Shown here one piece after another: positions 17,166-45,220 of a stretch of 64,000 nucleotides of DNA; position 1 is the stretch's first letter; each line of letters starts with the position of its first letter. The DNA is from a virus: positions 124,001 to 188,000 of IMG/VR virus record IMGVR_UViG_3300027710_000011; one strand, given 5' to 3'. The translations under genes were made by a program, and so were the position numbers. The notes beneath the pieces were generated by a model. It saw nothing but the letters and a program-made list of their open reading frames with translations, was not told the DNA's origin and made no database searches.

Positions 17166-17735
17166 TTATACTTTTTCTATAGCTTTTTCAAAACTCCAAC
17201 CTTTTTTAACAATTCTACTGTAGAGTACGTTGTAAGAAATATTTAAATATTTAGACCATTCTACCAAGGTCTTCGTTACACCGTTATGTGTGTATGTGTG
17301 TTTATTAGAAGGTAGTGCAATTGCTGTTTCTAAATCTAGACCTCTTGATAATCTGTTTTTAATGGTCTGTACCGACAACCCTGATTGTCTGGCAAGTTCT
17401 GACGCAGTTACTTTCACATCAGCTACGGTGTAATAAACGTTATTTCGCCTATTGCTGCTTTGTTCAAGATTTGTAGCCCAACAGCAATTGTCAGGTTCGT
17501 AGTTTCCGTTAGTGTCCTTGCGCTCAATTGAATGTTGATCAGATGGTCGGAACCCCATATCCAAAATAAAAGCTTCATAGCTGTCCATCCAGCGACTACA
17601 AATAGTAATACCGCGCCCTCCGTAATCCGGATACGCTGGATGATTTGGATTTAAACAGCGTTGTTTCATATTTGCCCAAACAGCATAATGGTTATTTACG
17701 GATACATCGTGAAGATGTTTCTCGTGTTGCAACAT
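17166..17735 (-). CDS. Homing-endonuclease-like protein (YGGRGI / HNH-like family)
   Basis: N-terminal domain (about 18-95) has the phage pattern Y-x-VWxxMKQRC...YGGRGITIC-x-RW...SIERKDTNGNYEPDNCCWAT...EQSSNRR, commonly annotated as HNH or AP2-like homing nuclease. Two helix-turn-helix modules follow (about 105-135 and 148-189, VTASELARQSGLS and LVEWSKYLNIS), probably for DNA recognition. The gene is visibly richer in A+T than its neighbours. It has its own candidate early promoter (17766-17774) and stands between other units, as expected of a mobile gene. A paralog lies at 37254-37967. ATG at 17733-17735 with AGGAG. Confidence 0.8.
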   Translation of the reverse strand: MLQHEKHLHDVSVNNHYAVWANMKQRCLNPNHPAYPDYGGRGITICSRWMDSYEAFILDMGFRPSDQHSIERKDTNGNYEPDNCCWATNLEQSSNRRNNVYYTVADVKVTASELARQSGLSVQTIKNRLSRGLDLETAIALPSNKHTYTHNGVTKTLVEWSKYLNISYNVLYSRIVKKGWSFEKAIEKV

Positions 17736-20655: not shown

Positions 20656-22092
20656 TTAGATTCCTCGAATCGCTGCTTTGATGAGAATCAGCAGAATCGG
20701 AGTGAAGTAGAAACGATCCATCGTGTTCCAGTTGTTCATATCTTGCACCAAAGACTTCAGATGCCTGATCTCAAGCGGTTCGGCACTGAGGTACTTACGC
20801 AACTGCAATTCCAGTTGAGATTGAGCACCCTTAGTCGTATCGTTGATGTAGAACGCACGGGACAAGATGTAGCACCCATCCTTCATCGCTTTGTGAACCA
20901 GCGGAGGAGGCTCAGGATAATCGATTTCGTTGCCATCAACATCAGCAGCATTGAAACCATTGATCACCACATTGGGGAACATATCCGCCAAGCGCTTGTC
21001 GGCGCTGGGAAGCAAAGAGATCACGCTAGGACGCATCTCTTCAGGAGCGGGTTTCAACCCACTCGTGTCCACCAACTTCGGGTTCTTGATCTGAACGTAG
21101 TCAACTGTCAACACCGGATCGACCGGATAGATCACGCTACCCAAACCACTGTGATAGATGCTGTACAGCAAAGGTTCTCTGCTGAACTGCAAAGCGTTCA
21201 CAGTCCCGTATTCAACGAAACAATCCTTGAGCAACGTAATGTCGCGCTGCTTGATCATGCTCCAGATTTGCATGCTGCGCAAAGCGTCATCTTCATCGCG
21301 GTTGTATTCGCGCACATGCTGGGCTTCTTCGGTATCCCACGCATCGAAGAAATTGGTACAAGCATTGACCAAGAACGGGTCGTACACCACAGGCTTTTGA
21401 CCAGGCATCAGCATGGTCTTGAACTCACGGCTGAAGAAGGCACGGAAGTAGCGTGTAACCAATTCCTTGTAACTGCGGCGCAAGAAGTTGGTGATCTCAA
21501 ACTCTTCTTCAAAGAGCAGAGGGTTCTGGCCGTGATTGTGGAAGTCACGGTCGTAGAACAACTTGCGAACAGTCTTGTTCTCCAAGTCAGCCAGTCGATT
21601 ACCGGGCGATGTATCGATCAACTGGTATTCGATCTGATGTACTGTGCGTTTGAAAACGCTACGGCGTTCAGAGGTTGTGACTTGGAAGATACCTTCCTTG
21701 CCATCACCCAAGTCGGCCAGGAACATATCGCCCGTATTCGGGATGACGAACGGATAAACGGTTGCCGTACCACGAACAACCATTTGTTTCGTTTGCGGAT
21801 CTTGACTGGTCGTCAAGGGAGACGACACCTTCAATTCCATATCGGTGATACGGGTGTATTGCTGGAACACACCTGAGACCGATTGATTCTGGCCAGCGGT
21901 AGAACTGTCAGTGTTGAGCACTTGGCTGTAGTACTGACAAACCCACTCGCTACCTTCAATGTGAGTAAGCAGATTTTCCACTGCTTCTACTTTGGTGTTG
22001 ACTGTCACGCCCTGGTAATCCGGCACAGCAGTCTGAGTGATTGCTGGTACTGGCGCCGGACGCGTTTCGTCATCGGGTTCGACGATAGGCAT
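20656..22092 (-). CDS. Probable virion structural protein, 478 aa
   Basis: Large mixed alpha/beta protein with a Pro-rich N-terminus and a hydrophobic C-terminus (YFTPILLILIKAAIRGI). The middle contains FRAFFSREFKTMLMPGQKPVVYDPFLVN-type segments with no database family that I can name. Nine bases separate it from the next gene. ATG at 22090-22092 with AGGAAAAC. Conserved-structural by context. Confidence 0.65.
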   Translation of the reverse strand: MPIVEPDDETRPAPVPAITQTAVPDYQGVTVNTKVEAVENLLTHIEGSEWVCQYYSQVLNTDSSTAGQNQSVSGVFQQYTRITDMELKVSSPLTTSQDPQTKQMVVRGTATVYPFVIPNTGDMFLADLGDGKEGIFQVTTSERRSVFKRTVHQIEYQLIDTSPGNRLADLENKTVRKLFYDRDFHNHGQNPLLFEEEFEITNFLRRSYKELVTRYFRAFFSREFKTMLMPGQKPVVYDPFLVNACTNFFDAWDTEEAQHVREYNRDEDDALRSMQIWSMIKQRDITLLKDCFVEYGTVNALQFSREPLLYSIYHSGLGSVIYPVDPVLTVDYVQIKNPKLVDTSGLKPAPEEMRPSVISLLPSADKRLADMFPNVVINGFNAADVDGNEIDYPEPPPLVHKAMKDGCYILSRAFYINDTTKGAQSQLELQLRKYLSAEPLEIRHLKSLVQDMNNWNTMDRFYFTPILLILIKAAIRGI

Positions 22093-23753: not shown

Positions 23754-25175
23754 TTACTTCAGTTGCAAACCAGAAGCAACGCTATGGCTGCCCTTAGCGT
23801 GAGCAGCAATGCTCTTCGAAATTGCGGTCAGCAAGTACGAGATCGTGCGGCCAGAAGCTTCGGACAGACGCGTGTACGGCACAGTCGCGCTCTTCGTGAT
23901 CGAGTTGGTCACGATGAGGGATTGCAGCGACATTGCGTAACAGAGTGGATTCTGAGTATCCATCTTGCTCACGCGTGATGCGATTTGATCGCAGCAAGTC
24001 CGAGAAAACGCAGTACGCTTCTGCAAAGATGCAGAGATGCTACGGCTGCCGGAGCGTGCGCTGTAGAACGTCAGCAATTGCTTCACGAGCTTGATAGCTT
24101 TGGCAATCTCAGCCATGCTCATTGCTTCCACTTCCACCACAGCGGCGGCGGAGACAGCGTCATTCACAACCGTGATGCGGTTGCGGTGCGCCACACGAGC
24201 GATCAGGTCTTGCACCGAAGTGCTGGAGTGCATGCTGATCGAGGCGAAGACATCTTTAGGGATGTACTCTGCTTCAATGCGAATGCCGCCAATCAGCTGC
24301 GGCGTTTGCGTAATGATGCTGCCGTCAGGACCAGACAGGTGAGCGGCAGGGTAGCCGCTGAACAAACGAGGCACATTGAACGCACCGGAGATTTGTTGCA
24401 GCAACCGAACCGTACCGTCACGCTGAGCGTGTTGAACAGTTTGACCTTCCGTTTTCTTGATGGCCAAATCGCTCTCGTACAGACGAACGAAGCCGGAACC
24501 GTATTCGTAGTTGGCATCGCCAACCGAATCCATGAAGTTGCCCATCACATCAGCGAACTTGGCGGATTCGGCAAGCAGCTCTTGCATGCTGCTGACGCCC
24601 TTGCCTTGAACGGTAGGCAACTGGATCTTGATGTTGTCAACGTTTTTGGTAAGGGTACCGGCGCTGCTCAGTTCGTCGTAAGCCTTTTCAAGCTTCTTCA
24701 AACGAGTTTCGCTACCACCAGCAATCAACATCAAACGCTGGATGTAGCTGGCGATGTAGGTGCTGGCTTGACGCAGCAGTTGCTTGATGGCCGCGATGAT
24801 GCGAGCAATGGTTTCTTTCACCTTGCGAACGACTTCCGCACCGGTGATGCGAGCATCACCCAACATGTCTTCCATGGCAGGCGTGATCACTTCACCAGTG
24901 TCTTCCGTGCCAGCAGCAGCGAAGTCGCCAGCCACCTGGATCAATGCTGCTTCCTTCGGAGTGATTTCGCGGATGTGATCGACAACGAACGCCAAATCTT
25001 CCAGAGCCGAGACCATCGGCGCTGCGCGTTCAGTTTCGGCAAAGGTGCCTTCGAGTTGTTGTTGCAGTGCGCATGCTTCTTCAATGGCCTGCACTTGCTC
25101 TTCAAGAGCGACAGTAGGCAGGACACCGAGACCGAGCGTGCGCTCTTTGTAAACAGTTGCAATGAGCTTGCTCAT
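23754..25175 (-). CDS. Inner-head (inner-body) protein paralog, 473 aa
   Basis: Member of a paralogous family in this window. An ALE site lies near the N-terminus (VALEE, 22-25), followed by a helical prosegment and then a second A-x-E site (ITPAMED, 97-103). A long amphipathic helix follows (EVVRKVKETIARIIAAIKQL). In phiKZ, inner-body proteins are matured by a protease cutting after S/A/G-x-E, and the layout fits that. The product is probably packaged in the head and may be ejected with DNA. ATG at 25173-25175. The family call rests on architecture, not on a database match. Confidence 0.7.
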   Translation of the reverse strand: MSKLIATVYKERTLGLGVLPTVALEEQVQAIEEACALQQQLEGTFAETERAAPMVSALEDLAFVVDHIREITPKEAALIQVAGDFAAAGTEDTGEVITPAMEDMLGDARITGAEVVRKVKETIARIIAAIKQLLRQASTYIASYIQRLMLIAGGSETRLKKLEKAYDELSSAGTLTKNVDNIKIQLPTVQGKGVSSMQELLAESAKFADVMGNFMDSVGDANYEYGSGFVRLYESDLAIKKTEGQTVQHAQRDGTVRLLQQISGAFNVPRLFSGYPAAHLSGPDGSIITQTPQLIGGIRIEAEYIPKDVFASISMHSSTSVQDLIARVAHRNRITVVNDAVSAAAVVEVEAMSMAEIAKAIKLVKQLLTFYSARSGSRSISASLQKRTAFSRTCCDQIASRVSKMDTQNPLCYAMSLQSLIVTNSITKSATVPYTRLSEASGRTISYLLTAISKSIAAHAKGSHSVASGLQLK

Positions 25176-25278
25176 GATGTATTTTCTGTCGGTTGTTTAG
25201 TGCAGACCACGACTTTCAACAAGAAAGTCATTAGGAGAATTCTACATACAATGAAGAACGCAGAAAGCTGGTTGAAAT

Positions 25279-25310
25279 AAAACGAGTGAGCTTAAACACT
25301 CACTCGTTTT
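25279..25310 (-). terminator. Rho-independent terminator
   Basis: Twelve-base stem AAAACGAGTGAG/CTCACTCGTTTT after the 25324-26553 gene. Strong U-tract. Confidence 0.88.
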
Positions 25311-25323
25311 ATTATTACGCCAA

Positions 25324-26553
25324 TTACGCCAACTTAGCGTTGATGCTTTGCTCTTCCACGTCACGGATGCGCGCAAGCGCTTTATTCAACGATGTGCATT
25401 CGCTATCGATTGCTGAGCTGAGCTTAGTGATCGAGGTGATGTCTTTGATGATGCCGCCGAGAATTTCGCGCATCTGCGAAGCCTTCATGGGACCATAGGT
25501 TTTTCTACCTGTGAGCTTGAGGTCGATATCATTATCGTGACGGCGCAGATGGTCCTTGAAATTCTTCATCTCTTGCTCAAGACTCTTGGACAGAGTTGTC
25601 AAGCTGAGAGCGCCGCTTTCGCCGAGGAAACGAGCGTAGTCCGAAACCACATCCTCGATTTCAGAGACCAGATCATGGCTGATCTTGCTCGTGTTTTCTT
25701 CAGACGGCTCATCACCACCACCAATCAGAGATTGCGTGACCACGAAGTAGTTCTTGCAGAACGAAGCTGTGGACGACAGAGTGTTCGTGTGATTGATGCG
25801 CTCGGTTTGAACTCCGATCTTCACGCCGGCGTGCCAGGTCTTTTCATCGAACTTCTTCTCAAAGTTCAAGAGCTGACGTTGTGCAGCTTCCATCTTGTTC
25901 AGCACGCTGACATCCATCGTTTCTTCAACGTGACCAGCTTCGGCTTCATTGGCCGCGATACGAGTCTCAGCCAGGTCGGCGACGATCGGGACGTATTGCT
26001 CAATAGCTTTGGAAAGCTCGAGCATACTGGCGCAGCGCTTGCGAATGCTGTTGATCTTGCGGCTATCAGCCGAACGGCCAACCATGTGCTTGAATGCGGA
26101 CACGGTTTCCTTGAGATGCTTGAAGCCATTGCGGAACTTCTCGATAGCCCAAGCAATGAAAGCCTTGATCTTTTCGACCACGTAGGCGATCATCTGTTTG
26201 ATCTTGTCGATGATGGCTTGAGACTTGTCGCTGGTCGAAACTTGTTCGACATTCATAACGGCGCTGGACTCGAGGGCTGGTGTGAACACAGCGCCACTGA
26301 TACCGGACGATGCACCAGCGATGTCGCCGATCACTTGAACCAGAGCGATGTCGGTGGCGTCGAGTTCTTTCAGGGATTCCAGAACCAGGCTCAAGTTTTC
26401 CAGACCAACAGCCACATCTTCGGCTTGCTTGGCATCGGTCAGGCAGTTCTCGATGTCCAGCACTTGGGCCAGACCTTCGTAGGTGTTAGCTACGGCGTCA
26501 GCTTCGGCTTCGGCTTCCAGAGCCAGAGACAAAGCGATATTCTTTTCAGTCAT
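25324..26553 (-). CDS. Inner-head protein paralog, 409 aa
   Basis: ATG at 26551-26553 (AGAGG upstream) is preferred to the in-frame TTG at 26592. It has the family layout: ALEAE at 11-15, a prosegment with VGLENLSLVLESLKELD, then FTPALES (90-96) as the second candidate protease site, followed by an amphipathic helix (DKIKQMIAYVVEKIKAFIAWAIEKF). The prosegment is alignable by eye with that of 23754-25175 (LEDLAFVVDHIREI...IQVAGDFA against LENLSLVLESLKEL...VQVIGDIA). Confidence 0.7.
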   Translation of the reverse strand: MTEKNIALSLALEAEAEADAVANTYEGLAQVLDIENCLTDAKQAEDVAVGLENLSLVLESLKELDATDIALVQVIGDIAGASSGISGAVFTPALESSAVMNVEQVSTSDKSQAIIDKIKQMIAYVVEKIKAFIAWAIEKFRNGFKHLKETVSAFKHMVGRSADSRKINSIRKRCASMLELSKAIEQYVPIVADLAETRIAANEAEAGHVEETMDVSVLNKMEAAQRQLLNFEKKFDEKTWHAGVKIGVQTERINHTNTLSSTASFCKNYFVVTQSLIGGGDEPSEENTSKISHDLVSEIEDVVSDYARFLGESGALSLTTLSKSLEQEMKNFKDHLRRHDNDIDLKLTGRKTYGPMKASQMREILGGIIKDITSITKLSSAIDSECTSLNKALARIRDVEEQSINAKLA

Positions 26554-26616
26554 GTCAAACCTCTTCAGGGTTGGTAACTTGAGCTTAGTCAAGTTTTGTT
26601 AAATGCGTCATAAGAA

Positions 26617-26648
26617 GAGTATCAGATCCTTTTACGGATCTGATACTC
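26617..26648 (-). terminator. Perfect hairpin terminator
   Basis: Thirteen-base perfect stem GAGTATCAGATCC/GGATCTGATACTC with a 6-base loop, downstream of the 26696-28219 gene. Confidence 0.8.
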
Positions 26649-26695
26649 AACTATGATCAGTCTACTGAAATGATCGCGTTATGCAATTCTGAACA

Positions 26696-28219
26696 TTACT
26701 TCAGGAGTGCAGTTTCGCCATCATTCTTTTCAGCTTTGCCTTCAAGCTTGGCAATACACAGATCAACGTAACGGATCACGTTGGCACTGGTACTGATAGC
26801 GAAAGCGAACGAACGCTCGTGGATGCCGGCGGCCAGGGCAGGAGCGATTGCGGAAATCGAGCGCAGGAAATCGCGGTCCTCATCAGCGAGGTCAACGTCT
26901 TCCTTGGATTCGATGTTTGCAACAGCTGCTTCCAGTTTGGACACCAGAATCTTGCCGGCCTTGAAATCACGCTGGAACTTGCGAATGATCGAAGTCGTCT
27001 TGATGACTGTCTCGAGGACATTCAACAAACCTTCCGGAGGCAGAACATCAAGGTCTTTGAGTTCAGCGTTGTCCGTGCGCTTGATCATGTATTCGAACTC
27101 GCGCAGATCTTCCGTGGTCTTGGGCAGACACAGAACACCCACGTGGTTACCAGGCAGCAAGTCGGTGGTCAGCACATCAACACGATCACCAGCGCCGTCG
27201 ATGTCGAATTCGGCATTGCTGGAGTCATGAGGGAAGTGACCGTCCAACGCACGCTTGAGCACGCGTGGGAAGTTTTCCATCATGCGACCGATATCCTTGT
27301 CCTGAACGAATGCTTCGATCAGGGTGTTCAGATAGTCGATGTAACCGGAGTCAGCAGACTCATAGGCGTCCTTGACCAGGTCGTGCATGTTCTGGAAAGC
27401 TGCATCGTTCCAGCCAGAATCCGTGTAGCCCAGCGCCATCTTCAGTCGTTGGTTGCTGATGACAGCACCTTCACCGACTGTGGAGCCACGCAGGCCACGA
27501 ACGCGCGAACGCATCGACATCGCGGCACGCTCAACTTTGGCGGCTGTGTTGAAGATACTGGCGAAGAATTCTTGAGCATGCACGTAGGCACGACGAACGG
27601 CCTCGATGATCGTGCGCAGCAGACGCACGACTTGATCGCGAATGCTGCTGACCTTTTCACGCATGCTGGCACCAAAGCCTGCGCCGTCCTCGAGGGCCAC
27701 TGCAGGGTTTTCCAAGCCAAGCTTGTTGTAGATGCTCTCAATCGCCAGATCAAGAACAGCACGACCGGCATCGGTGTCAGCTTCAACGGCCTTGGTTTCT
27801 TCGGCAGAGCTTGCCAAGTCTTCCAGCTCATGAACGGCCACGCATGCCTTCTTCAGGTCACTGGCGTTGGCATCAAGAGCACGTTCGCCGTCACGCATTT
27901 CGCCGACGTCTTCCAGGATGTCGATAATGTCGACTTCGCCGGCTTCGAGCTCAGGTGCGTCAGGATCCAGAGGACCATCTTCATCAAGCACTTCGTCAGC
28001 GGGTGTCTCGCGACTACCTTCGTCAACTTCATCGGCCACGACTTCTTGGATGGCTTCCACCGTGGTTTCAGGCTCTACCACCGGAGCGTCATCGGTACCA
28101 GCAGCAGGCACTTCGTCCTGATTACCAGTAGCTTCGCCGCTTTCCAAAGGCACTTCTTCACGACCTTCAGCAGTTGCTTCGAGAGCAACACGCATCAAGT
28201 TGTTTTGATTTTGTTTCAT
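26696..28219 (-). CDS. Inner-head protein paralog, 507 aa
   Basis: Begins with VALEA (11-15), then an acidic Glu/Asp/Pro-rich prosegment (20-120), a helical part with VHELEDLASSAEE, and the second site AVALEDG (173-179). The mature part starts with an amphipathic helix (VSSIRDQVVRLLRTIIEAVRRAYVHAQEFF) as in the paralogs. Probably cleaved during head maturation and packaged. ATG at 28217-28219. Confidence 0.7.
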   Translation of the reverse strand: MKQNQNNLMRVALEATAEGREEVPLESGEATGNQDEVPAAGTDDAPVVEPETTVEAIQEVVADEVDEGSRETPADEVLDEDGPLDPDAPELEAGEVDIIDILEDVGEMRDGERALDANASDLKKACVAVHELEDLASSAEETKAVEADTDAGRAVLDLAIESIYNKLGLENPAVALEDGAGFGASMREKVSSIRDQVVRLLRTIIEAVRRAYVHAQEFFASIFNTAAKVERAAMSMRSRVRGLRGSTVGEGAVISNQRLKMALGYTDSGWNDAAFQNMHDLVKDAYESADSGYIDYLNTLIEAFVQDKDIGRMMENFPRVLKRALDGHFPHDSSNAEFDIDGAGDRVDVLTTDLLPGNHVGVLCLPKTTEDLREFEYMIKRTDNAELKDLDVLPPEGLLNVLETVIKTTSIIRKFQRDFKAGKILVSKLEAAVANIESKEDVDLADEDRDFLRSISAIAPALAAGIHERSFAFAISTSANVIRYVDLCIAKLEGKAEKNDGETALLK

Positions 28220-28255
28220 GTCTAATCCCTTTTCAAGATTGCTACGTAGTAGTTA

Positions 28256-28283
28256 AGACGAGAGGTATTTCTACCTCTCGTCT
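28256..28283 (-). terminator. Rho-independent terminator
   Basis: AGACGAGAGGTA/TACCTCTCGTCT perfect stem with a 4-base loop after the 28293-30290 gene. Confidence 0.82.
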
Positions 28284-28292
28284 CAATCCTGA

Positions 28293-30290
28293 TTAGGCTG
28301 CGGCAGGAGCCGGGGCTGCTCCCGCAGCCCCGGCAGGAGCTTCAGCCTTCTTCGGGGCCAGAGCGGCCAGCGACTTCTTGCAGTAGTTCAGCGAAGCGCT
28401 GTTGTTGGCGAACGCAACCTTCACGGCATTCGAAGTCAGGCCGGCAGCCAGTTGATGCAGAACCTTGCCCAATGCGGGATCGGGTTTGGCATCAGCACCG
28501 GCAGCTTTGGCGGCGTAACCGTTGAAGCTGTTCAAAGCACTCTTGAGCTGACGACTCATGTTGGTCAGAGCAGACATGCTCTTGGCGCTGTTGGCGATCA
28601 CAGTGGCCAGGCCGCGGACTTCAGGAGCAGACAGAGCCGGGATTGCGGTTGTCGCAACTTCGGCCGGGACGTACTGACGGCCGAAAGCCATCTTGGGCAG
28701 ATCAGCAGCAGTCTTGGGAACGTAAGCCCACAGGACTTGGTTGCCAGGCAGAACGGGCGAAGCAAAGCCCTGCGTGCCTTCAGGAGCAGCGGCAACGCCC
28801 AGCGAAGCCAGATCGTTGTTCGGCTTCAGAGCAGCAGCCACGTTGCCGTAGATTGCTTGAACCAGCTTTTCCTTGTTGGCCAAGCTGGCATCACCGGTTT
28901 CACCAGCGCGCTCAACCATCTTGGTGATGCCGTCGACGAAGATGCCGCCGTTGGCAGCAATTTTGTCCAGTGTGCCGTTGACGGACACCATCTGCTGCAC
29001 GATGTTCTTAGGAACAGCGGTGCCGATGGCGAAAGCCTTAGCCAAAGCAGCGTCTTCCAGCGGTTTGTCGGAACGAGCATCGCCCATGGCTGTGGCTTGT
29101 TTCAGCAAGCCAGCTGCTTGTTGACCTTGGAGAACGGCGCCAGAGGCCAGCTTGTCGTAGAAACCGATGACCATGCTGATGAATTTGGCGATGGCGGCCT
29201 TGATGACTTCCCACACGTCCTTGGCGGTCTGCTTGATTTCTTCCAGAGCGATGGAAGTTGCCGAGATGCGGACGCCAGGCTGTTCAAAGGACTCCATGGC
29301 CAGGATGCCGATGGGAGGAGCCAGCTTCAAAGTTTGGTGGATGTGTTCCACAGCCACTTCCAGAACTTGAGCAGCAGCCTTGGGCAGGCCGCCTTCTTCA
29401 GCGCTGGATTCCACGATGTCGGCGATCTTGCTCAGGGCTTCACCACCTTCGTTGTAGGTGTTCAGCTCGGTGGCCATTTCGTCCAGCTCAGGTGCGATCT
29501 GATCAGCAGTGATCATTTCGGGCGAAGAGCCGATGGGGGTGGTATCGGAAGTGACAACCAGGTCTTCCTTGGACACGGCAGCTTCGGCACCTTCTTCGCC
29601 TTCAGCCTTGGTCTCGTCGATGGCGGACTGCACTTCTTCAGCAGCAGCATCCGACTCGGCAGGAGTCGGCGTAGCGTCCACAGCGGGTTCGTCAGCAGCA
29701 GGCACTTCAGCCGCAGGGGCGTCAGCGGCCGGTTCAGCTGCAGGCTCACCGCCTTCAACAGGAGCCGCGTCGGCGGCAGGAACTGCGTCAACCGCAGGCG
29801 CGTCTTCAGCAGGAGGTGCATCGGCAGCAGGTGCTGCGTCAGCAGGAGCATCGGCCGGGACGTCGGCTGCGGGAGCAGCGGCTTCGCCTTCGGCAGGCAC
29901 AGCGTCGACAGCAGGTGCGTCCACAGCGTCAGCAGCGACATCAGCAGCGCCACCGGCATCGGCGGGAGGAACTTCAGCGACAGCTTCAGGCACCACTTCA
30001 GCCACAGGCTCAGCAGGAGCGGGAGGCACTTCCACCACAGCAGTACCTTCGGCCGGCTTGGAAGCTTGTTCCACTTCGACCTTGATGATCACGGTCGGAG
30101 CAGTTGTTTCGGCCACAGGAGCGACTTCGGGAACACCGGCTTCACCAGCGCCGGCGGCCACGGCGTCAGCGGTCGTGTCGGCAGCGGCTTCGGTCGGCAC
30201 AACCGCGGGGACTTCGTCAGATTCCAGAGCGACAGCGGATTGGCGGGCCATCAAGCCGGCGAGAACTGCGCGGTTCAGATTACGTTGCAT
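28293..30290 (-). CDS. Inner-head protein paralog with Ala/Pro-rich prosegment, 665 aa
   Basis: AVALES lies at 19-24, followed by about 210 residues of Ala/Pro/Val/Asp/Glu low-complexity sequence (25-235), then a helical prosegment and two candidate protease sites, LAMES (330-334) and IALEE (347-351). The mature part opens with KDVWEVIKAAIAKFISMVIGFYDKL, like its neighbours. The low-complexity stretch would be removed if both ends are cut. ATG at 30288-30290 with GGAG. The very long open frame on the opposite strand is a by-product of this GC-biased sequence. Confidence 0.7.
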   Translation of the reverse strand: MQRNLNRAVLAGLMARQSAVALESDEVPAVVPTEAAADTTADAVAAGAGEAGVPEVAPVAETTAPTVIIKVEVEQASKPAEGTAVVEVPPAPAEPVAEVVPEAVAEVPPADAGGAADVAADAVDAPAVDAVPAEGEAAAPAADVPADAPADAAPAADAPPAEDAPAVDAVPAADAAPVEGGEPAAEPAADAPAAEVPAADEPAVDATPTPAESDAAAEEVQSAIDETKAEGEEGAEAAVSKEDLVVTSDTTPIGSSPEMITADQIAPELDEMATELNTYNEGGEALSKIADIVESSAEEGGLPKAAAQVLEVAVEHIHQTLKLAPPIGILAMESFEQPGVRISATSIALEEIKQTAKDVWEVIKAAIAKFISMVIGFYDKLASGAVLQGQQAAGLLKQATAMGDARSDKPLEDAALAKAFAIGTAVPKNIVQQMVSVNGTLDKIAANGGIFVDGITKMVERAGETGDASLANKEKLVQAIYGNVAAALKPNNDLASLGVAAAPEGTQGFASPVLPGNQVLWAYVPKTAADLPKMAFGRQYVPAEVATTAIPALSAPEVRGLATVIANSAKSMSALTNMSRQLKSALNSFNGYAAKAAGADAKPDPALGKVLHQLAAGLTSNAVKVAFANNSASLNYCKKSLAALAPKKAEAPAGAAGAAPAPAAA

Positions 30291-34255: not shown

Positions 34256-37180
34256 ATGAACAACACAGTCGCTTCCCGTCTAGGGGATGTATCGAAATTC
34301 ATGTACAACCCCTCGGCAATTCAACGAGCTGCGGTTGGCTTGATTTCAGCAGTGACGAACGGCGAGATTGAACTTGTTGATCCGAGCAATCCGGTGGTCA
34401 TGTGTATTGAAAATGCATCGATCAATACTGCTGCTTGGATGATCGAGAATGCAGCTCTGACTCGTCGCCAATACCCGGCTGCTGCCCAGACGATCGAAGA
34501 TCTCTATCCTCACATGAGCGATAAAGATTACATCGATCGCTTTGCAGTACCCACTAAAGGCAACTTCGTCTTCTTCTTCGGTGAAGATGAGATCTTGTCT
34601 AAGCTGGTGGCCGATGCCAGCAACAACGGTGTTCGTAAAGTTGTGATTCCTCGCAACACTTACGTGACGGTCAACGATACGGTATTCAGCTTGCAATACC
34701 CGATCGAGATTCGCCAGATGGCTCACGGTGGTTTGCAGATCGTTTACGACGTAGATGCGCTGTCTCCGCTCCAACGCCTGGCTACCAACTTGATCGAATG
34801 GAAGATCTTGACTGCTGCTGACGGTACTCGTCTGCTGGCCTTCTCGGTCGAGATGACTCAGTTCAAGATCAACAGCCAAAACAACTCAGTGACGAACGCC
34901 ACTGGTTTTGTGCAGAACATCGCGATCACTGATCAATTCTTCTTTGGTCGTGTGTTTCAAAAGAACAACGATGGTTCGTACAAAGAACTGGCTACCACTC
35001 ACACGGAAGAGATCTTTGATCCGGCGACACCTACCGCTGTCTTCACGGTCTTAGAAGGCTCTGTTCGCGTCAAGATCCCTCAGGTCTACTTGACAACAGG
35101 AATGGTGAGTGGTTCGATTCGGATTGACATCTACGAAACCAAAGGTGTTTTGTCGATGAACATGATCTCGTATCGTCCCGAGCAATACTTGCTCAAGTAC
35201 GAAGCATACAGTCCGAGCGAGAAGAATGAGTACGTTGCTCCTTTGGCAACATTGCGCATCAACAGCGTGATGTCGTCTTCGGTGATCAACGCTGGTCAGA
35301 ACGGTCTGACATTCGAGCAGCTTCGCAAACGCGTTATCAGCAATGCGATTGGCTCTCCTGATCTCCCGATTACCAATACGCAGATCGAAGCATCTCTGGA
35401 GCGTGAAGGTTACGCTGTTGTTAAGAACATTGACAACATCACCAATCGTGCATTCCTGGCTGCTCGCTCGTTGCCTGATCCGCAAGCCAGTGAATTGATC
35501 ACAGCAGCTGCTGCGGGTATCAGCACGTTGTCTACTTCAGTCGAAGACGTTGTCAAGGTCTCTACGGTTGTGAATAACGGTGACGTTGTCACGATCAAGC
35601 CAGAGACCTTGTACAAGAACATCAACGGTGTTGTGCAGATTGTTTCTGATTCTGAAGTGTCTGCGCTGAGCGCAATGCCTCCTGATCAGATGGCGATCGT
35701 GGTCAACAATGCCAACTACATGTACACGCCTTTCTACTACGTGATGGATTCGTCCAGCAACGAGTTTGGTTTGCGTGCCTACCACTTGGATACTCCTATT
35801 GTGGAATCCAAGTCGTTCATTGGCGAGAACGATACGACGCTGTTGCAAGTCGGTACTGACCAGTACTCAATCATTCGGTCCGCAAACGGCTATGTGATTG
35901 AAATCCAGACCAAGAGCTCTGATGACTGGAAGGGTTTGCGAGACGATCAAGTGTTTGTCCAGCTGGCTTACATCCCGACGGGCGACGTTGATCGCGCTTA
36001 CGTGCAAGGCATGCTGGTCGGTAAGTCGGATGAGGGTGAACGCATCTATCACTTCCCGATCAATACCACTTGGAAGATTGGCGCAGATAACGAGATGCAA
36101 GTCTCGTCGTTCCTGATGTTCAACAATACACCTCGCAATGTGAACTTGCCGTTGCTGAAGGACTTCGATGTTCTTTACTCGACAAACACGCCTCGTGGTG
36201 CCAATTGGGTTGTGAGTAATACAGACGCGTTCTTGGGCTACTTCTTGCTGCCTCAGGATACGTACGCCATTACTCACGAGACTCTGTCGGTGCGCTTGGG
36301 TCACTTCTTGAAATACTTGTGGTGCCGTGCTCGCACTATTGTTGGTGAAGCCAATTACGAGAAATGGGCGATGGATGTTCCTGCTCTTTACGCAGAGGAC
36401 ATTTATCAAACAGATCCAGTGACCGGTTCTGCATTTGAGATTGATGCTGACGGAAACCTTCAATACACGATTCTCCACAAGAAGGGTGATCCTGTTATCG
36501 ATGATCATGAACGACCTGTTTACAAGCATCGTATCGGCGACATCAAGCTTGACGCCTACGACAGTCCTATCGTGATCAACTCACGCAATCTGGTTCGCCA
36601 GATGGACATGTTCTTGATTGAAGGCAGTTACTACCTGGCCACTAACCAGGTGACTGCTGAGTATCGGAACTACTTGCGTACGACGGTGGTGGATTGGCTG
36701 ACAGAAGACTTGCCCAGCATGGGTAACAACCTTCTGGAACAAACCAGTCTGTTCTACTACCCGATCACAAGCGTGGGACTGATCAAGGTCTTGTTCGCTA
36801 ACGGCCTGGAAACCTATCTAGAAGCCGGTCAATCGTTCCGCTGTACCCTGTACGTCAACAGTGCTGTGTACAACAACTACGACCTGCGTGCGACACTGAC
36901 TGTGAACACCATCAAGACGATCAGTCTTGAGTTGCAAAAGCGCATTGTGTCAATGTCCAACATCATTGACGCATTGAAGACTTCCTACAAGGACGACGTC
37001 ATTTCGATTGAGATGTCCGGTCTGGGTGGGAACAAGAATCTCAACGTGGTAACGATCATCGATGATGCGCAGCGCTTGTCGCTTCGTAAGATGTTGGTGA
37101 CTCGTAACGACGAGACGCTTGGTTTGCAAGAAGGTGTCGAAGTTACGTTTGTGCTTCACGAAAGAGCTAGTTTGATGTAA
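34256..37180 (+). CDS. Large probable virion structural protein, 974 aa
   Basis: A very long beta-rich protein without catalytic motifs, expected for a tail or baseplate component. The frame is clean throughout, with plus-strand codon bias. The ribosome site is weak (GAGAAAATTCCTC). It ends at a large hairpin shared with the convergent endonuclease-like gene. No family was recognised. Confidence 0.7.
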   Translation: MNNTVASRLGDVSKFMYNPSAIQRAAVGLISAVTNGEIELVDPSNPVVMCIENASINTAAWMIENAALTRRQYPAAAQTIEDLYPHMSDKDYIDRFAVPTKGNFVFFFGEDEILSKLVADASNNGVRKVVIPRNTYVTVNDTVFSLQYPIEIRQMAHGGLQIVYDVDALSPLQRLATNLIEWKILTAADGTRLLAFSVEMTQFKINSQNNSVTNATGFVQNIAITDQFFFGRVFQKNNDGSYKELATTHTEEIFDPATPTAVFTVLEGSVRVKIPQVYLTTGMVSGSIRIDIYETKGVLSMNMISYRPEQYLLKYEAYSPSEKNEYVAPLATLRINSVMSSSVINAGQNGLTFEQLRKRVISNAIGSPDLPITNTQIEASLEREGYAVVKNIDNITNRAFLAARSLPDPQASELITAAAAGISTLSTSVEDVVKVSTVVNNGDVVTIKPETLYKNINGVVQIVSDSEVSALSAMPPDQMAIVVNNANYMYTPFYYVMDSSSNEFGLRAYHLDTPIVESKSFIGENDTTLLQVGTDQYSIIRSANGYVIEIQTKSSDDWKGLRDDQVFVQLAYIPTGDVDRAYVQGMLVGKSDEGERIYHFPINTTWKIGADNEMQVSSFLMFNNTPRNVNLPLLKDFDVLYSTNTPRGANWVVSNTDAFLGYFLLPQDTYAITHETLSVRLGHFLKYLWCRARTIVGEANYEKWAMDVPALYAEDIYQTDPVTGSAFEIDADGNLQYTILHKKGDPVIDDHERPVYKHRIGDIKLDAYDSPIVINSRNLVRQMDMFLIEGSYYLATNQVTAEYRNYLRTTVVDWLTEDLPSMGNNLLEQTSLFYYPITSVGLIKVLFANGLETYLEAGQSFRCTLYVNSAVYNNYDLRATLTVNTIKTISLELQKRIVSMSNIIDALKTSYKDDVISIEMSGLGGNKNLNVVTIIDDAQRLSLRKMLVTRNDETLGLQEGVEVTFVLHERASLM

Positions 37181-37253: not shown

Positions 37254-37967
37254 TTACGTCTTATTTACAGCTTCTTCTATTGACAACTTATCCCGATTGA
37301 TTCTTTGATGAAGTTTCCAATACGGGATCCCTGATGATTTTGATATCTCAGAGAGACTCATCTGTTGTCCATTGAATAAGAAAGTTTTTGGTTGTGTGAG
37401 TGGGCCAAAAACCTTATCTAGTGGCCAGTTGTTATTTAATCGATTTTCAAGTGTAGCTACTTCAATCCCGATTAAATTGGACCATTCAGAAAGCGTAAGC
37501 GTCTTATCATCAAAAGTGTAAGTGCTTGGTTTGCGAATTTCAGGATTTAAAGCTTCGCTGACGCTAGCGCCTTTACTTAATCTTGTATAAATTGTCTTAG
37601 CAGAAACATTCAACTTTCTGCTCATTTCAGCTACAGTTCCTTTATTTCCATCGTGTTCCAGTACGACATTTGTTCTAAGATTGTTAGCTTGCTCCATAGG
37701 AGTTGCCCAACGACAATTACCAGGTTCGTAATTCCCATTCATGTCGGGGAAGCGATCAATTGAATATTCAGGGCCAGGCTTAGAACCCATATCGGTATAG
37801 AAGTTTTCGAAAGAATTCCTCCATCGATCACAAATCGTAATACCACGACCACCGTAGTTGTGATAAGCAGGATTATTTTGATTAAAACAACGAGCGATCA
37901 TGCTACACCAGCTTTGGTACTCGCTAGTCTTGGACATTCCGTGCGTGCTATTTATACCAGTTACCAT
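37254..37967 (-). CDS. Homing-endonuclease-like protein (YGGRGI / HNH-like family), 237 aa
   Basis: Same family as 17166-17735: YQSWCSMIARC...YGGRGITICDRW...SIDRFPDMNGNYEPGNCRWAT...EQANNLR in about residues 18-95, then three helix-turn-helix modules (KGTVAEMSRKLNVS, LTLSEWSNLIGIE, MSLSEISKSSGIP). The open frame extends upstream, but ATG at 37965-37967 is chosen because GGAGG lies eight bases before it; the extension overlaps the neighbouring gene's end and terminator. A+T-rich, with its own candidate early promoter and a terminator at each side: an independent insertion between structural units. Confidence 0.82.
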   Translation of the reverse strand: MVTGINSTHGMSKTSEYQSWCSMIARCFNQNNPAYHNYGGRGITICDRWRNSFENFYTDMGSKPGPEYSIDRFPDMNGNYEPGNCRWATPMEQANNLRTNVVLEHDGNKGTVAEMSRKLNVSAKTIYTRLSKGASVSEALNPEIRKPSTYTFDDKTLTLSEWSNLIGIEVATLENRLNNNWPLDKVFGPLTQPKTFLFNGQQMSLSEISKSSGIPYWKLHQRINRDKLSIEEAVNKT

Positions 37968-37996
37968 AATGCCATCCTCCAATTCTTGACACAAAG

Positions 37997-38005
37997 GTGA
38001 TATGT
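37997..38005 (-). promoter_or_regulatory. Candidate early promoter element ACATATCAC
   Basis: Minus-strand ACATATCAC, extended as CCACATATCACC, 29 bases upstream of the start at 37967. The identical 12-mer occurs upstream of 47540-48088. Confidence 0.55.
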
Positions 38006-38065
38006 GGTTATAAAACCGTAGACTTCGTTCTGCATGAGCGCGCAAGTCTTCGTTAATTGAGACGT

Positions 38066-38097
38066 CATAAATGGAGGGATCACTCCCTCCATTTATG
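38066..38097 (-). terminator. Rho-independent terminator
   Basis: Fourteen-base stem CATAAATGGAGGGA/TCCCTCCATTTATG with a TCAC loop after the 38111-39562 gene. Confidence 0.88.
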
Positions 38098-38110
38098 CTA
38101 TCTAGTTTGT

Positions 38111-39562
38111 TTACGAATAAACAAGCTTCTCGATTGCTTCCGGTGTAGAGTTCACCAGGGTTGCCATCTTCTTGCAGTATTGACCCACAAAGAAATCCAT
38201 GTCGATTTGGAAATTCATGCACGCTGTGAGCAATTTCACAGTGTGTTTGTGAATCCAAATCGCCAGCTGCATAGCTGCTTTCAGGAGGTGGTGAACTTCC
38301 TTGATCAACGCAGTGTTGCTGCTCTTTCTCATCTTTTCAATGATAGTAAAGCAACTTTTCATGCAATCGTCGAGGCTGTTCGTTTCTTCAGCTGCGCCCT
38401 TCTCACTGAACTGAATTTCCTTGTTGACAATGAGAATGCGTTCAGCGATGAAACCTAACGTCACCGTATCGCTTTGCTGTTCCGTCATGGGCTCGATGCC
38501 GTCGGTCATTCGCTCCAGCTTTTGAATGTAGCCGAACAAATCACCGTCATGTATACGAGACAGACGTCTCATATAGGTCGATAGCTGTCTCTGAAGATCT
38601 CTATCGGTGGAATCTGCATCAAGACCTTTTAACGTGTCTTTAACAGCGGCGAGCACGTCACCGTTCTGTGCTTTTGAGGAAATGATCTCTTCAAAAACAC
38701 GATCGGTTCTTGAAACAGTAATCGCGCCGTGTTCGTTCTCACAAAACCCCACACGAACTTGTTTCAATCTGTCGAGCAACTTTTCAGTAGCGTCAGAGAT
38801 GGCTGTTTGATCGGACAGGTCTTTTGACAGTTTGGAAACACTGTCGACAAGCTTCTTGGGAGTATGGAAGTTTTTCTCCAGAGCAGTCATGTTCTTTACG
38901 AGAGTTCCAAGACCCTCGCTGCTCTGACGATATTTCCGCATGAGATCGGAAGTGACAAACTTCTTGTACTGCACACGTATCCACTCGATCGCTTCGAGGA
39001 TATATTTCTTGAGCTTCTCAATCAGCTCTTCGATTTTCATCCCCACTTCAGTAGCGTCTATCTCTTTCGAGGATTCACTTCTGCCTAAGCGCTTGAGTCG
39101 AGCCGATATGATCGGATCTTTGGACAAATCAACCCCTTGGCGCTGGTAAAGGGGATTTCGGTTAAGCAGCGGTATGGCTTCAAGCAGCGCGCTTTTCATT
39201 GCTTGGTTGCCGTTTTTATCGGCACTGAAGCTATCTGCCTCATACTCAAACGAAGCCACAACGTTCTTACCAGGCTCGATCTTTTCCATATGGCCGCAAG
39301 CAATGTGACCATACTCGTGATCCATGATTGCATTTTTAGCGGATGCTGAAAGCTTATTCCAAATACTGGTGATCGCGAAGATGATGTGTTCACCGTAAAC
39401 GATCAGATCCGGCTCTCTCACGATGCTTTTGACGTCAATGACAGCGTGTTTTGGAATAGCACCAATCCCCACCATCTCCAGGTACTTGTAGGTACCCATG
39501 TCGGAGAAGTCGCTTTCTTCGATAAACAGAATCTGTCCGTACGCGCACTTTTCGGTTTTCAT
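38111..39562 (-). CDS. Zinc metalloprotease fused to inner-head-type domain
   Basis: The N-terminal domain carries the zinc protease motif HEYGH at 82-86 (DHEYGHIACGH), followed by FEYEADSFSADKNG at 105-118, whose Glu fits the third zinc ligand of M48-like (gluzincin) enzymes, E-x-AD. After residue 168 the sequence (DATEVGMKIEELIEKLKKYILEAIEWIRVQYKKF) resembles the start of the mature part of the neighbouring inner-head proteins, with A-T-E as a possible prohead-protease site. The protease domain thus stands where the paralogs have a prosegment. It may act in head maturation or be delivered into the host; the substrate is unknown. ATG at 39560-39562, close behind the next paralog. Confidence 0.75.
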   Translation of the reverse strand: MKTEKCAYGQILFIEESDFSDMGTYKYLEMVGIGAIPKHAVIDVKSIVREPDLIVYGEHIIFAITSIWNKLSASAKNAIMDHEYGHIACGHMEKIEPGKNVVASFEYEADSFSADKNGNQAMKSALLEAIPLLNRNPLYQRQGVDLSKDPIISARLKRLGRSESSKEIDATEVGMKIEELIEKLKKYILEAIEWIRVQYKKFVTSDLMRKYRQSSEGLGTLVKNMTALEKNFHTPKKLVDSVSKLSKDLSDQTAISDATEKLLDRLKQVRVGFCENEHGAITVSRTDRVFEEIISSKAQNGDVLAAVKDTLKGLDADSTDRDLQRQLSTYMRRLSRIHDGDLFGYIQKLERMTDGIEPMTEQQSDTVTLGFIAERILIVNKEIQFSEKGAAEETNSLDDCMKSCFTIIEKMRKSSNTALIKEVHHLLKAAMQLAIWIHKHTVKLLTACMNFQIDMDFFVGQYCKKMATLVNSTPEAIEKLVYS

Positions 39563-39579
39563 TCTTTATTGCTCCCGTG

Positions 39580-41975: not shown

Positions 41976-42506
41976 TTAGCAGACGGGCGCCGAAATTGGC
42001 GAGACAGTCGCGATGGCTTCACCGTTGTTGGCTGCCACTTCAGCGTTCTTGGCTTCTTGAGCATCCTTGAGCTTTTGCAAGATGTCGCGGATGCCGATTT
42101 CCAAGGCGCCGATGTGAGTGGCCATGCGGTTCAAGGCGTCCATCTCTTCACGAGAGAAGTTGCGAGCAACATTGAAGTAGCCGCAGAAGTAGTCGTCCGG
42201 AGTTGTTGTGTGAACACGACGAACGTGGATGGTTTCGTAGCGCATCATCCAGAACTTGCGAACCAGTTCCAGCGACAGACGCACATCGAAAGGAGCAACT
42301 TCATTGAAAGCACCAACGTGGTCACGAGCAATCATCGCGCCGGAACGAGCGAATTCGGAAACAGCGCTGTCCACCTTAGCGGCCGGCACGGCAATGAAGT
42401 CAGCCACGCTGCTAGCAACAGCGGCAGCAATAGCGAAGGTGCGATCAGGGCCGGTCAGGCGAATGGTGGAAACGTTGCTCAGAAACTTGATGTAATCGGT
42501 TTTCAT
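41976..42506 (-). CDS. Probable virion-associated protein, 176 aa
   Basis: Ala/Val-rich N-terminal region (about 22-60) of moderate hydrophobicity, a helical centre and an Ala/Asn-rich tail. No A-L-E site and no recognised family. It lies between the metalloprotease gene (15 bases downstream of its stop) and an inner-head gene, so it is probably co-expressed with them. ATG at 42504-42506 with AAAGAGAA. Confidence 0.65.
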   Translation of the reverse strand: MKTDYIKFLSNVSTIRLTGPDRTFAIAAAVASSVADFIAVPAAKVDSAVSEFARSGAMIARDHVGAFNEVAPFDVRLSLELVRKFWMMRYETIHVRRVHTTTPDDYFCGYFNVARNFSREEMDALNRMATHIGALEIGIRDILQKLKDAQEAKNAEVAANNGEAIATVSPISAPVC

Positions 42507-42520
42507 AATTCTCTTTCAGT

Positions 42521-43873
42521 TCAGATGGATTTGAGAGCTGCCGCCTTGGCGTACAGATCATTGTGGGCGAGACCTTCCAGTTGCCTTTGGAAGGTTACGT
42601 TGGCTTGACGGTTAGCCGCGTTGGCGTTGAAGAAAGCAAAAACCTTCGAGACGAGCGTGGGCTCAGAAGAACCGAGCTTGAGCACCTTATCCATGAAGGC
42701 AAGTTCTTCGTTCAGTTGTTTAACGTACGCAGCGTTAAACTTGGTGTTACCGCGAGCCAGAGCAACTTTAATTGCCTGCACCTGCTGGTTACGCAGTCTG
42801 ACCAAACGACCGTGGTTGCTATCGTACATAGGTTCGAAAGGACTCACATCTTCTTTAGAGATGAGACCAACGCCTAGGATTGCGGCCACGATACCGATGA
42901 TGACCATGAACGGGGCACCAGTAGCGACCAAGCCACCACCTAGTACGGTTGCAACAAGACCGCCGACGAAACGCGCAGCTTGAGTGTAGTAGAGCGTGGC
43001 GCGATCTTGCATCGAATAGTCCGGATTCCATTTCATCAGCTTATTCAAAGCTGAGAACAAATGAGCGCCAGCACCATGTCGAGCCGCGTATTGATCGGCT
43101 AACATTTCAAAGGTGTTCATGTCGTAAAAGCTATGGCCGGATTGTGTCCGGATTGCTTTCATGCCATTGCTCAAAAGCACAGTGCTCACCACCATGTCTT
43201 CAGCGTTTTCAATGGACTGAACGACGTTACGATCAATGCCAAGATCCTTACCGGCAGTCCTGATAATCGTCGCGCGCTTGCTTGGTTCTTTCACATTCAG
43301 AAGATCGCGTTGCAGCTCAGCCAATACTTGATTGGTGGAGACTGAACGATCCAGGAATTCCAGCGATGTCCAGAAGTGACCGATCTCGTGCAAAAGCAAA
43401 GAGCAGTATTCTTCATCGGTGAACTTGGCACCGAATGCTTCCTTGTACAACATCTCTCGACTCATGCTGAGTTCGCCATGAATTGTCTTGGAGATGCTTC
43501 CTGTTGCGACACATTTCTTCAAATCGAGACTGACGCTGAGTTCCTTCTTGAACGCATTGATTGACTTGATAATTTCATCGTTATTATCGATGGCAACAAA
43601 GTCGTAGGAATTGAAGATGTGACTCCAATCCAAACGCGTGAAGAAGATAGAACCAGTGGCTCCGACCGCTAGATCAAAGTTGATGATCAAGCCAGTGCGA
43701 TCAAGCACTGTCTTACTCAACCTCTTCTCCAGGTTTTCCCACTCGGCGTTCGAAGCCGCAGCGCGTTGATCAGTCGGAAAAGTAGCCAGGTCAGCTAACA
43801 GATCTTTGAAGAAACCGTCACCTTGAAAATGTATAGCTTCTGTCGCAATTGACAGATTCTTTTCGGTGGACAT
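42521..43873 (-). CDS. Membrane-associated zinc metalloprotease
   Basis: HEIGH at 162-166 (LLLHEIGHFW) gives the zinc-binding HExxH motif; FEMLADQYAARHG at 255-267 supplies the ExxAD third-ligand motif of M48-like proteases, with Glu256 as the likely ligand. A Gly-rich hydrophobic stretch at about 300-338 (VGGLVATVLGGGLVATG...VIIGIVAAILGVGL) is one or two membrane-inserting helices. An A-T-E triplet at 10-12 could be a prohead-protease site. It sits among inner-head genes and has a conserved upstream element (43897-43918), so a packaged protease that acts at or in the host membrane is plausible; the substrate is unknown. ATG at 43871-43873 with AAAAGG. Confidence 0.75.
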   Translation of the reverse strand: MSTEKNLSIATEAIHFQGDGFFKDLLADLATFPTDQRAAASNAEWENLEKRLSKTVLDRTGLIINFDLAVGATGSIFFTRLDWSHIFNSYDFVAIDNNDEIIKSINAFKKELSVSLDLKKCVATGSISKTIHGELSMSREMLYKEAFGAKFTDEEYCSLLLHEIGHFWTSLEFLDRSVSTNQVLAELQRDLLNVKEPSKRATIIRTAGKDLGIDRNVVQSIENAEDMVVSTVLLSNGMKAIRTQSGHSFYDMNTFEMLADQYAARHGAGAHLFSALNKLMKWNPDYSMQDRATLYYTQAARFVGGLVATVLGGGLVATGAPFMVIIGIVAAILGVGLISKEDVSPFEPMYDSNHGRLVRLRNQQVQAIKVALARGNTKFNAAYVKQLNEELAFMDKVLKLGSSEPTLVSKVFAFFNANAANRQANVTFQRQLEGLAHNDLYAKAAALKSI

Positions 43874-43981: not shown

Positions 43982-45220
43982 TTACCGGGAATTAATGAAT
44001 TCCTTGACCACACGCGTATTCAGATCATGGACAGACTTCCAGACCGTGTTCAAAACGTTCAAGCCCAAGACCACTTGAATCAAGTTCCCGCGAACCAAGA
44101 AGCTGTGGACTTGCGTCACATACTCGGAATGCGCGTCGAACGTACCTGTCGGACTCTTGACAGCTGAGTCGTTGAGTTTGTTCAAAGCATCCAAGAAGAC
44201 CTTGGAGTTAGTCGCGAAGAAATTCTTGATCTGGTTGGCGTACTTGACGATCTCGTCGTTCAGAGCCACCAAGCGATCTTGAAGATCTTGAGCTTTCATC
44301 AAGTTTGTCGTGATCGTCACGCGGCCCAATGCCAAGTCATCCTTGGCTGGAGGTTTGATCGAAGCACGATACTTCAACACGCCTGCATACTGGTTGTCTT
44401 TGATTTCTTCCAGGATGTGAATGCAGTTGAAAACCTTCAGCTCAGTAGCGAAGTGACGAGCCCTGCGCTCACCTTCTTCAACTACGTGTCTGCAGGTTTC
44501 ATCAAAGACTTGCAGATTTGCATCCGGCGCATTCATCAGCTTGTTGTAAGCTTCGATGACGAACTTGCAATGACGGAACTGCAAAGTCAACAATGCCACG
44601 GTGTCCTTGATGTAGCTAGCTGCCAACTGCTCCAACTTCTCAGTCTCAGCGATGATCTTCGAGTACTCGAGATGCAAGAAGCTTGGAATCTGGATAGGGA
44701 TTGAACCCGTTGAGTATCCTTCAGTAGCGACGGAAGGACTATCGGGCTGGCTTTTAGCCAGATCCAGTAAGCGCTGCGTTTCATTCAAGGAGCGCTTGTT
44801 CTGCTCTTCTGAACTGAGGATATGCATCACGTAGTTCTTGATGCGGTTGAACATGTCAACAGCAAACGCGATGATCTTCTTGATGAACTCTTTGATCTTG
44901 TCCATCACGCTGGCCTGCGCGCCTTCAACGGCTTCCAGAGCCAAGGCGTACTTTTGCTCTTTACTCAGGATACCAACTTGACGCTTGTTTGTACCGAGTA
45001 CGGCACAAGCCGCGCCGTAGCTTTCCATAACGAGCGAACCACTAGCGTCGTTGGCTTCGGTCAACTGACGCTTAAAGGCGCTGAGTTCGGCAGAACGCTG
45101 CAGAGATTCACTGAAGCCGGCCACGAGCTCATTGAGGTCGTTTGTGTACGACTCAGTGCAAAGCTCAGTAAGAGAAGTCTTTGGATCAACGAGAAGACTA
45201 TCCCAGATTATCTTGTTCAT
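43982..45220 (-). CDS. Inner-head protein paralog, 412 aa
   Basis: Family layout: a helical prosegment, LVMESYG (63-69) as a possible first site, and YALALEAVEGAQAS with ALE at 94-96. An amphipathic helix follows (VMDKIKEFIKKIIAFAVDMFNRIKNY). The mature domain is helical throughout. ATG at 45218-45220 with AAGGG. Its 5' leader contains a small hairpin (ACAGGAA/TTCCTGT, 45251-45270) and the second copy of the 22-bp element. Confidence 0.73.
   Translation of the reverse strand: MNKIIWDSLLVDPKTSLTELCTESYTNDLNELVAGFSESLQRSAELSAFKRQLTEANDASGSLVMESYGAACAVLGTNKRQVGILSKEQKYALALEAVEGAQASVMDKIKEFIKKIIAFAVDMFNRIKNYVMHILSSEEQNKRSLNETQRLLDLAKSQPDSPSVATEGYSTGSIPIQIPSFLHLEYSKIIAETEKLEQLAASYIKDTVALLTLQFRHCKFVIEAYNKLMNAPDANLQVFDETCRHVVEEGERRARHFATELKVFNCIHILEEIKDNQYAGVLKYRASIKPPAKDDLALGRVTITTNLMKAQDLQDRLVALNDEIVKYANQIKNFFATNSKVFLDALNKLNDSAVKSPTGTFDAHSEYVTQVHSFLVRGNLIQVVLGLNVLNTVWKSVHDLNTRVVKEFINSR

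Follow-up and report, generated by a model that had tools for sequence, protein, structure and literature searches.

The closest described counterparts of the protein analysed here are phiKZ gp86, 201phi2-1 gp148 and SPN3US gp47, with which it shares both a genomic position – between gp84-85 and gp87, or gp45-46 and gp48 in SPN3US – and a layout in which a cut site and an amphipathic helix lead into a helical C-terminal part. In the known proteins the cut falls at SQE-122 (phiKZ gp86), at SQE-113 (201phi2-1 gp148) and at AVE-79, likely again at ALE-111 (SPN3US gp47) (PMC5694885). The cleavage motif of the SPN3US prohead protease, gp245, is A-x-E, with the cut coming after the motif (PMC5694885, PMC10052503). 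Ejection is expected for all three proteins; after cutting, the head is cleared of the N-terminal fragments of phiKZ gp86 and 201phi2-1 gp148, while that of SPN3US gp47 remains there (PMC5694885). SPN3US gp47 is essential (PMC5694885, PMC10052503), and the position that these proteins occupy – here called the gp86/gp47 slot – evolves fast and has been connected with host takeover (PMC5694885).

Zincins in the heads of phiKZ-type phages are likewise known, or nearly so. The virion of SPN3US contains gp45, which has a propeptide of 20 residues (PMC5694885), and a survey of jumbo phages described a conserved, uncharacterised zincin in the phiKZ-type group for which a role in assembly was suggested (PMC7824862); this protein ('group 1 zincin' AMR59696.1) is probably a member of the gp45/gp84 family. 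A zincin-type motif (HExxH) is found, too, in a packaged and ejected protein of phage N4, where it lies in the C-terminal C1 domain of the virion RNA polymerase; there, however, it is part of a 3500-residue polymerase, a carrier unrelated to the one described below (PMC12633501).

The window, the whole stretch of 64,000 nucleotides that was analysed, belongs to a viral contig of 276,772 bases. Its head-gene cluster follows the order gp45-gp46-gp47-gp48-gp49 of SPN3US and gp84-gp85-gp86-gp87 of phiKZ, which identifies the source as a phiKZ-type jumbo phage. The slot between the gp85/gp46 and gp87/gp48 orthologues holds three minus-strand genes, as against one in SPN3US and phiKZ (Table 1). One of the three, the focal ORF, encodes a fusion of an M48-like metalloprotease domain with an inner-head-protein module; its N-terminus is complete, with an in-frame TAA two codons 5' of the ATG and a ribosome-binding site (GGGAG) at 39572-39576. 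Read from its sequence, the gene is most likely a third and diverged copy of an inner-head (ejection) protein of the phiKZ gp86 / SPN3US gp47 type. Gene order as well as sequence supports the view that the usual propeptide of about 110 residues has been replaced by a protease domain of 165, joined at A-T-E172; this domain, the extra copy and the three-gene array are what set the focal protein apart from gp86, gp148 and gp47.

Table 1. Features of the slot region and of the focal protein (window coordinates)
Feature	Position	Strand	Remarks
Focal ORF	38111..39562	-	483 aa, complete; predicted M48-like metalloprotease domain, then inner-head-protein module
M48-like (gluzincin) domain, residues 1-165	39068..39562	-	predicted; occupies usual place of propeptide
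HEYGH, residues 82-86	39305..39319	-	predicted zinc-binding and catalytic motif
E106-Y-E-A-D110 (in FEYEAD, 105-110)	39233..39247	-	predicted third zinc ligand E106
DPIISARLKRL, residues 149-159	39086..39118	-	P150, A154, R155, K157 and L159 common to L017 relative
A-T-E, residues 170-172	39047..39055	-	predicted prohead-protease site: A-x-E motif, start of slot match, low model confidence at 161-170
Helical inner-head / ejection-protein module, residues 173-483	38111..39046	-	recognisable part is amphipathic segment ~173-216
Slot-protein paralogue, 339 aa	39580..40599	-	predicted cut ALE-86; BLAST matches slot proteins elsewhere
Slot protein, 432 aa	40667..41965	-	phiKZ gp86 / SPN3US gp47 type; predicted cut ALE-109
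phiKZ gp85 / SPN3US gp46 orthologue	41976..42506	-	position and weak sequence match
Conserved virion zincin	42521..43873	-	SPN3US gp45 / phiKZ gp84 orthologue (phrog_2767); four genes from focal ORF
SPN3US gp48 / phiKZ gp87 orthologue	34256..37180	+	flanks variable slot

The 432-residue slot protein has homologues at over 20 IMG/VR loci and in Burkholderia phage FLC9 (gp342); its 339-residue paralogue scores 176 bits on a profile of slot proteins of which it is itself a member. FLC9 has a single slot gene, as has L024, the closest contig, whose gp48 orthologue is 52% identical. Two slot-type genes each are found in four other jumbo-phage contigs (L026, L029, L089 and L090), so the slot seems to expand repeatedly. 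Adjoining the 3' end of the focal gene is an HNH-endonuclease-like ORF (37254-38258, minus strand) that may be a mobile insertion; read from its TTG it overlaps the focal gene by 148 bases, and its true start is thus probably internal. A similar ORF lies at 17166-17735 on the same strand.

A first-pass annotation of this DNA, made from the letters alone, had recognised a gluzincin-type active site in HEYGH and a downstream ExxAD, and this has held up. The two motifs are intact, separated by 19 residues, and both are kept in the one relative of the domain that we found: a protein of 205 residues from another jumbo-phage contig, L017 (E 1.6e-6 in a small database), in which the second motif reads FEIEAD. 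Going by the M48 pattern ExxAD, E106 should be the third zinc ligand. Among random proteins of the focal composition 2.3% contain HExxH, and 0.06% contain HExxH followed by ExxAD at 10-80 residues. In M48 peptidases a segment HPxxxRIxxL comes after the active site, and the focal DPIISARLKRL resembles it. The L017 relative (21091-21705, minus strand) stands alone, with lysozyme-like and RNA-polymerase-like genes as its neighbours, and in the gp86/gp47 slot of its contig no slot protein is recognisable.

Family assignment leads to M48, with matches below formal cut-offs. In single-sequence searches M48 is the best Pfam family both for the focal domain (E 0.0039) and for the L017 relative (E 0.0016), with 17.5 and 18.7 bits respectively against a PF01435 gathering cut-off of 20.3. 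Among PDB sequences, a profile built from both proteins ranks HtpX first (E 0.0095), with the runner-up at E 1.3. An AlphaFold2 model of the domain, built from two sequences only, has a mean pLDDT of 61, with a core (61-90 and 102-160) mostly at 73-87, values below 50 at 21-60 and low confidence at 161-170; the ExxAD motif falls within a helix spanning 102-117. The model shows the helices expected of such a fold at usable confidence, and ZMPSTE24, an M48 peptidase, takes the first four places among PDB folds, but at E-values (0.4-1.0; probability 0.57-0.72) that are not significant. The best match in a viral fold library is nameless (probability 1.00, TM 0.56), with an M48 protein and IrrE-like and SprT-like proteins among the lower named matches; in neither library does a match reach E 0.001. 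Across 79 jumbo-phage records the two-sequence profile matches strongly only in that of L017; four further records have one weak match each (E 0.015-0.08), and the coordinates of all four place them within gp45-type zincins.

The domain is very probably a gluzincin, for which M48-like is the best label, although its scores stay short of formal M48 membership. Like the M48 peptidases (HtpX, ZMPSTE24, BepA) and the minigluzincins it would carry HExxH with ExxAD on the next helix, and its P..ARLKRL segment recalls the HP..RI..L of M48 peptidases; it differs from both groups in lying below the Pfam cut-off, in being soluble and very small, in the few residues between its motifs, and in its fusion to a phage head protein.

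The first-pass annotation had put forward a head metalloprotease as a separate function. An enzyme of this kind is not new in itself: the window encodes the conserved virion zincin at 42521-43873. Its family is present in 138 phage records, and in 51 aligned members H162, E163, G165, H166, E256 and D260 (HExGH...ExxAD/SD) are invariant, as is E12, the Glu of the predicted propeptide cut. The family profile finds ZMPSTE24 in the PDB at E 1e-5; the AlphaFold2 model (pLDDT 83, pTM 0.84) has ZMPSTE24 as its best natural protein by Foldseek, at probability 0.90 and a non-significant E of 0.3. The two proteins are alike in their M48-like HExxH and ExxAD, in being predicted head proteins encoded in the same cluster and, in the window's copy of the zincin, in an A-T-E, here near the N-terminus. 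Yet the motifs are about 90 residues apart in the gp45/gp84 family against 19 in the focal domain, and most related phages have a conserved member of that family, in contrast to the rare focal domain. The gp45 HMM gives the focal protein 0.2 bits, and in the other direction the focal profile yields only weak cross-matches to gp45-type zincins. An origin of the domain as a copied piece of the gp45 zincin is, given this score and the difference in spacing, not supported. The focal domain is, on our reading, a second zincin of such heads, in propeptide position.

What joins the rest of the protein to the slot family is a short segment. Our slot profile (an HMM) comprises the slot proteins of 28 loci and the two window copies; most members have a propeptide with ALE or a comparable triplet at its end and, after it, a helix of hydrophobic or amphipathic character. 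The focal C-terminal part, whose match begins at residue 170 and hence in the cut-site columns, scores 21.5 bits, the best of 1925 scored shuffles reaching 8.2; among 1334 other long ORFs, those scoring above it are almost all at the slot position. For comparison, phiKZ gp86, which is outside the profile, scores 23.2 bits and SPN3US gp47 3.1. Profile alignment by hhalign assigns probabilities of 18% to the focal C-terminal part, 38% to phiKZ gp86 and 24% to SPN3US gp47 (at most 1% in 60 shuffles), with the match confined to some 47 columns at the cut site and first helix rather than extending over the whole C-terminal part. Over residues ~169-216 the focal protein resembles the stretch directly behind the prohead-protease site of gp86/gp47-type proteins about as closely as phiKZ gp86 does. 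The kinship is probably real, though it rests on a single segment.

The first-pass annotation had likened the C-terminal part, beginning after the A-T-E, to neighbouring inner-head proteins. The module bears this out, but the likeness lies mostly in that one segment of about 47 residues, and the closest relatives are the gp86/gp47 slot proteins, not mainly the phiKZ_IP family (PF12699), which matches at six other places in the genome (E<=10) and not in the focal ORF. The slot-type segment is carried also by the phiKZ_IP-like inner-head proteins at 28293-30290 and 43982-45220. Four consecutive phiKZ_IP-type proteins lie at 23754-30290 on the minus strand, the one at 28293-30290 having a long Ala/Pro/Glu-rich N-terminal stretch. 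The propeptide pattern of the window's nearest relatives, GGMNQ..AmE..P....TrY..ALE, is absent from the focal ORF, which has the M48-like domain instead. In a mixed full-length alignment MAFFT misaligned the two halves.

The fusion occurs in none of 73 other clusters, and the domain type was found alone in one other contig, L017: it is rare. The full-length protein has no relatives by tblastn in 50,697 phage records, nor has its N-terminal or C-terminal part alone at useful E-values; a peptide scan of IMG/VR gave no relatives except L017, and none of 200 pattern matches from a peptide scan of GTDB genomes was confirmed. No second copy of the protease domain exists elsewhere in the same genome.

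In line with the first-pass annotation, which gave the known phiKZ maturation protease as a serine-type enzyme, a serine prohead protease is encoded elsewhere in the genome: a phiKZ gp175 query found its orthologue (35% identity, E 2e-35), which a PF03420 search had missed. The position of the cut is a prediction, since A-x-E is common in these proteins; with seven such triplets in the focal protein, the motif alone is weak evidence, and in the HMM alignment ATE-172 sits about 6 residues out of register with the ALE site of the relatives.

We favour, at roughly even odds (about 0.5), a reading in which a third slot copy has exchanged its propeptide for an M48-like protease, is packed, is cut at ATE-172, and has both parts ejected. 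The protein would be packed into the prohead and cut after ATE-172 by the serine prohead protease, leaving in the mature head a helical protein of ~35 kDa and a folded metalloprotease of ~19 kDa, whose size would probably make its exit harder than that of an ordinary propeptide. Together with the DNA, both fragments would probably be delivered into the host; there, in a step that is the least certain, the protease might cleave a protein of the host or of the phage at an early stage of infection. The prohead-targeting signal of known slot proteins is believed to lie in their propeptide; packaging of the focal protein, whose ORF is without the usual targeting propeptide, is thus not assured. The SPN3US gp47 N-terminal fragment that remains in the head speaks for this reading, and the clearance of the phiKZ gp86 and 201phi2-1 gp148 fragments against it (PMC5694885). 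More tentatively, and at less than even odds, the propeptide position may serve as a cargo bay, from which the prohead protease frees a foreign enzyme within the capsid for injection as a host-acting effector.

Other readings of the domain need to be weighed. The metalloprotease could act in head assembly and not in the host: freed inside the prohead, it would trim propeptide debris or assist the breakdown of the core, alongside the gp45/gp84 zincin. Such a role would account for the propeptide position and the nearby virion zincin, and has been suggested for the conserved phiKZ-type zincin that is probably the gp45/gp84 family (PMC7824862); yet 73 other clusters and FLC9 manage without the domain, so it can serve no general assembly step, and the slot is fast-evolving and tied to host takeover (PMC5694885). 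We regard this role as doubtful, and self-processing of the head core, an option of the first-pass annotation, found no support. Were the domain instead a zincin-derived propeptide with no need of enzyme activity – a targeting or folding piece, later removed – its place exactly at the propeptide position would follow naturally, and the propeptides of phiKZ gp86 and 201phi2-1 gp148 are indeed cleared after cutting (PMC5694885). Against this, a merely structural domain would not need zinc ligands or a catalytic Glu, and those predicted here are intact and kept in the stand-alone L017 relative at ~26% overall identity; we hold an inactive propeptide to be unlikely.

The site itself invites the further thought that the 483-residue fusion stays uncut and works as one protein, its helical part positioning the protease in the head or after ejection. 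That ATE-172 is one of seven A-x-E triplets, and out of register, speaks for this, while in phiKZ, 201phi2-1 and SPN3US the slot protein is in each case cut close to the corresponding position (PMC5694885) and the model is poorly ordered at 161-170, which together make an uncut fusion decidedly improbable. Least credible is a wrong M48-like assignment, with HExxH and ExxAD a coincidence in a helical inner-head protein: statistics are sub-threshold in each single search, but Pfam, PDB sequences, PDB folds, viral folds and the gp45 cross-matches agree on the fold class – searches that are not fully independent, most having the same two sequences as their starting point – and L017 retains both motifs.

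A protease domain that is cut free, packed and injected remains in our judgement the most likely reading, with cleavage, packaging, activity and target all argued from sequence; the phage may thus pack, and possibly inject, an extra protease. What is new is an inner-head protein in which the propeptide appears to have been replaced by a predicted M48-like metalloprotease. SPN3US cannot do without its slot protein, which is believed to take part in host takeover; a member whose enzyme domain can be read from sequence offers direct access to what proteins of this kind are able to do inside the cell. If packaging of the domain and its release by the prohead protease are both real, jumbo phages would be shown to load enzymes by way of head-protein propeptides.
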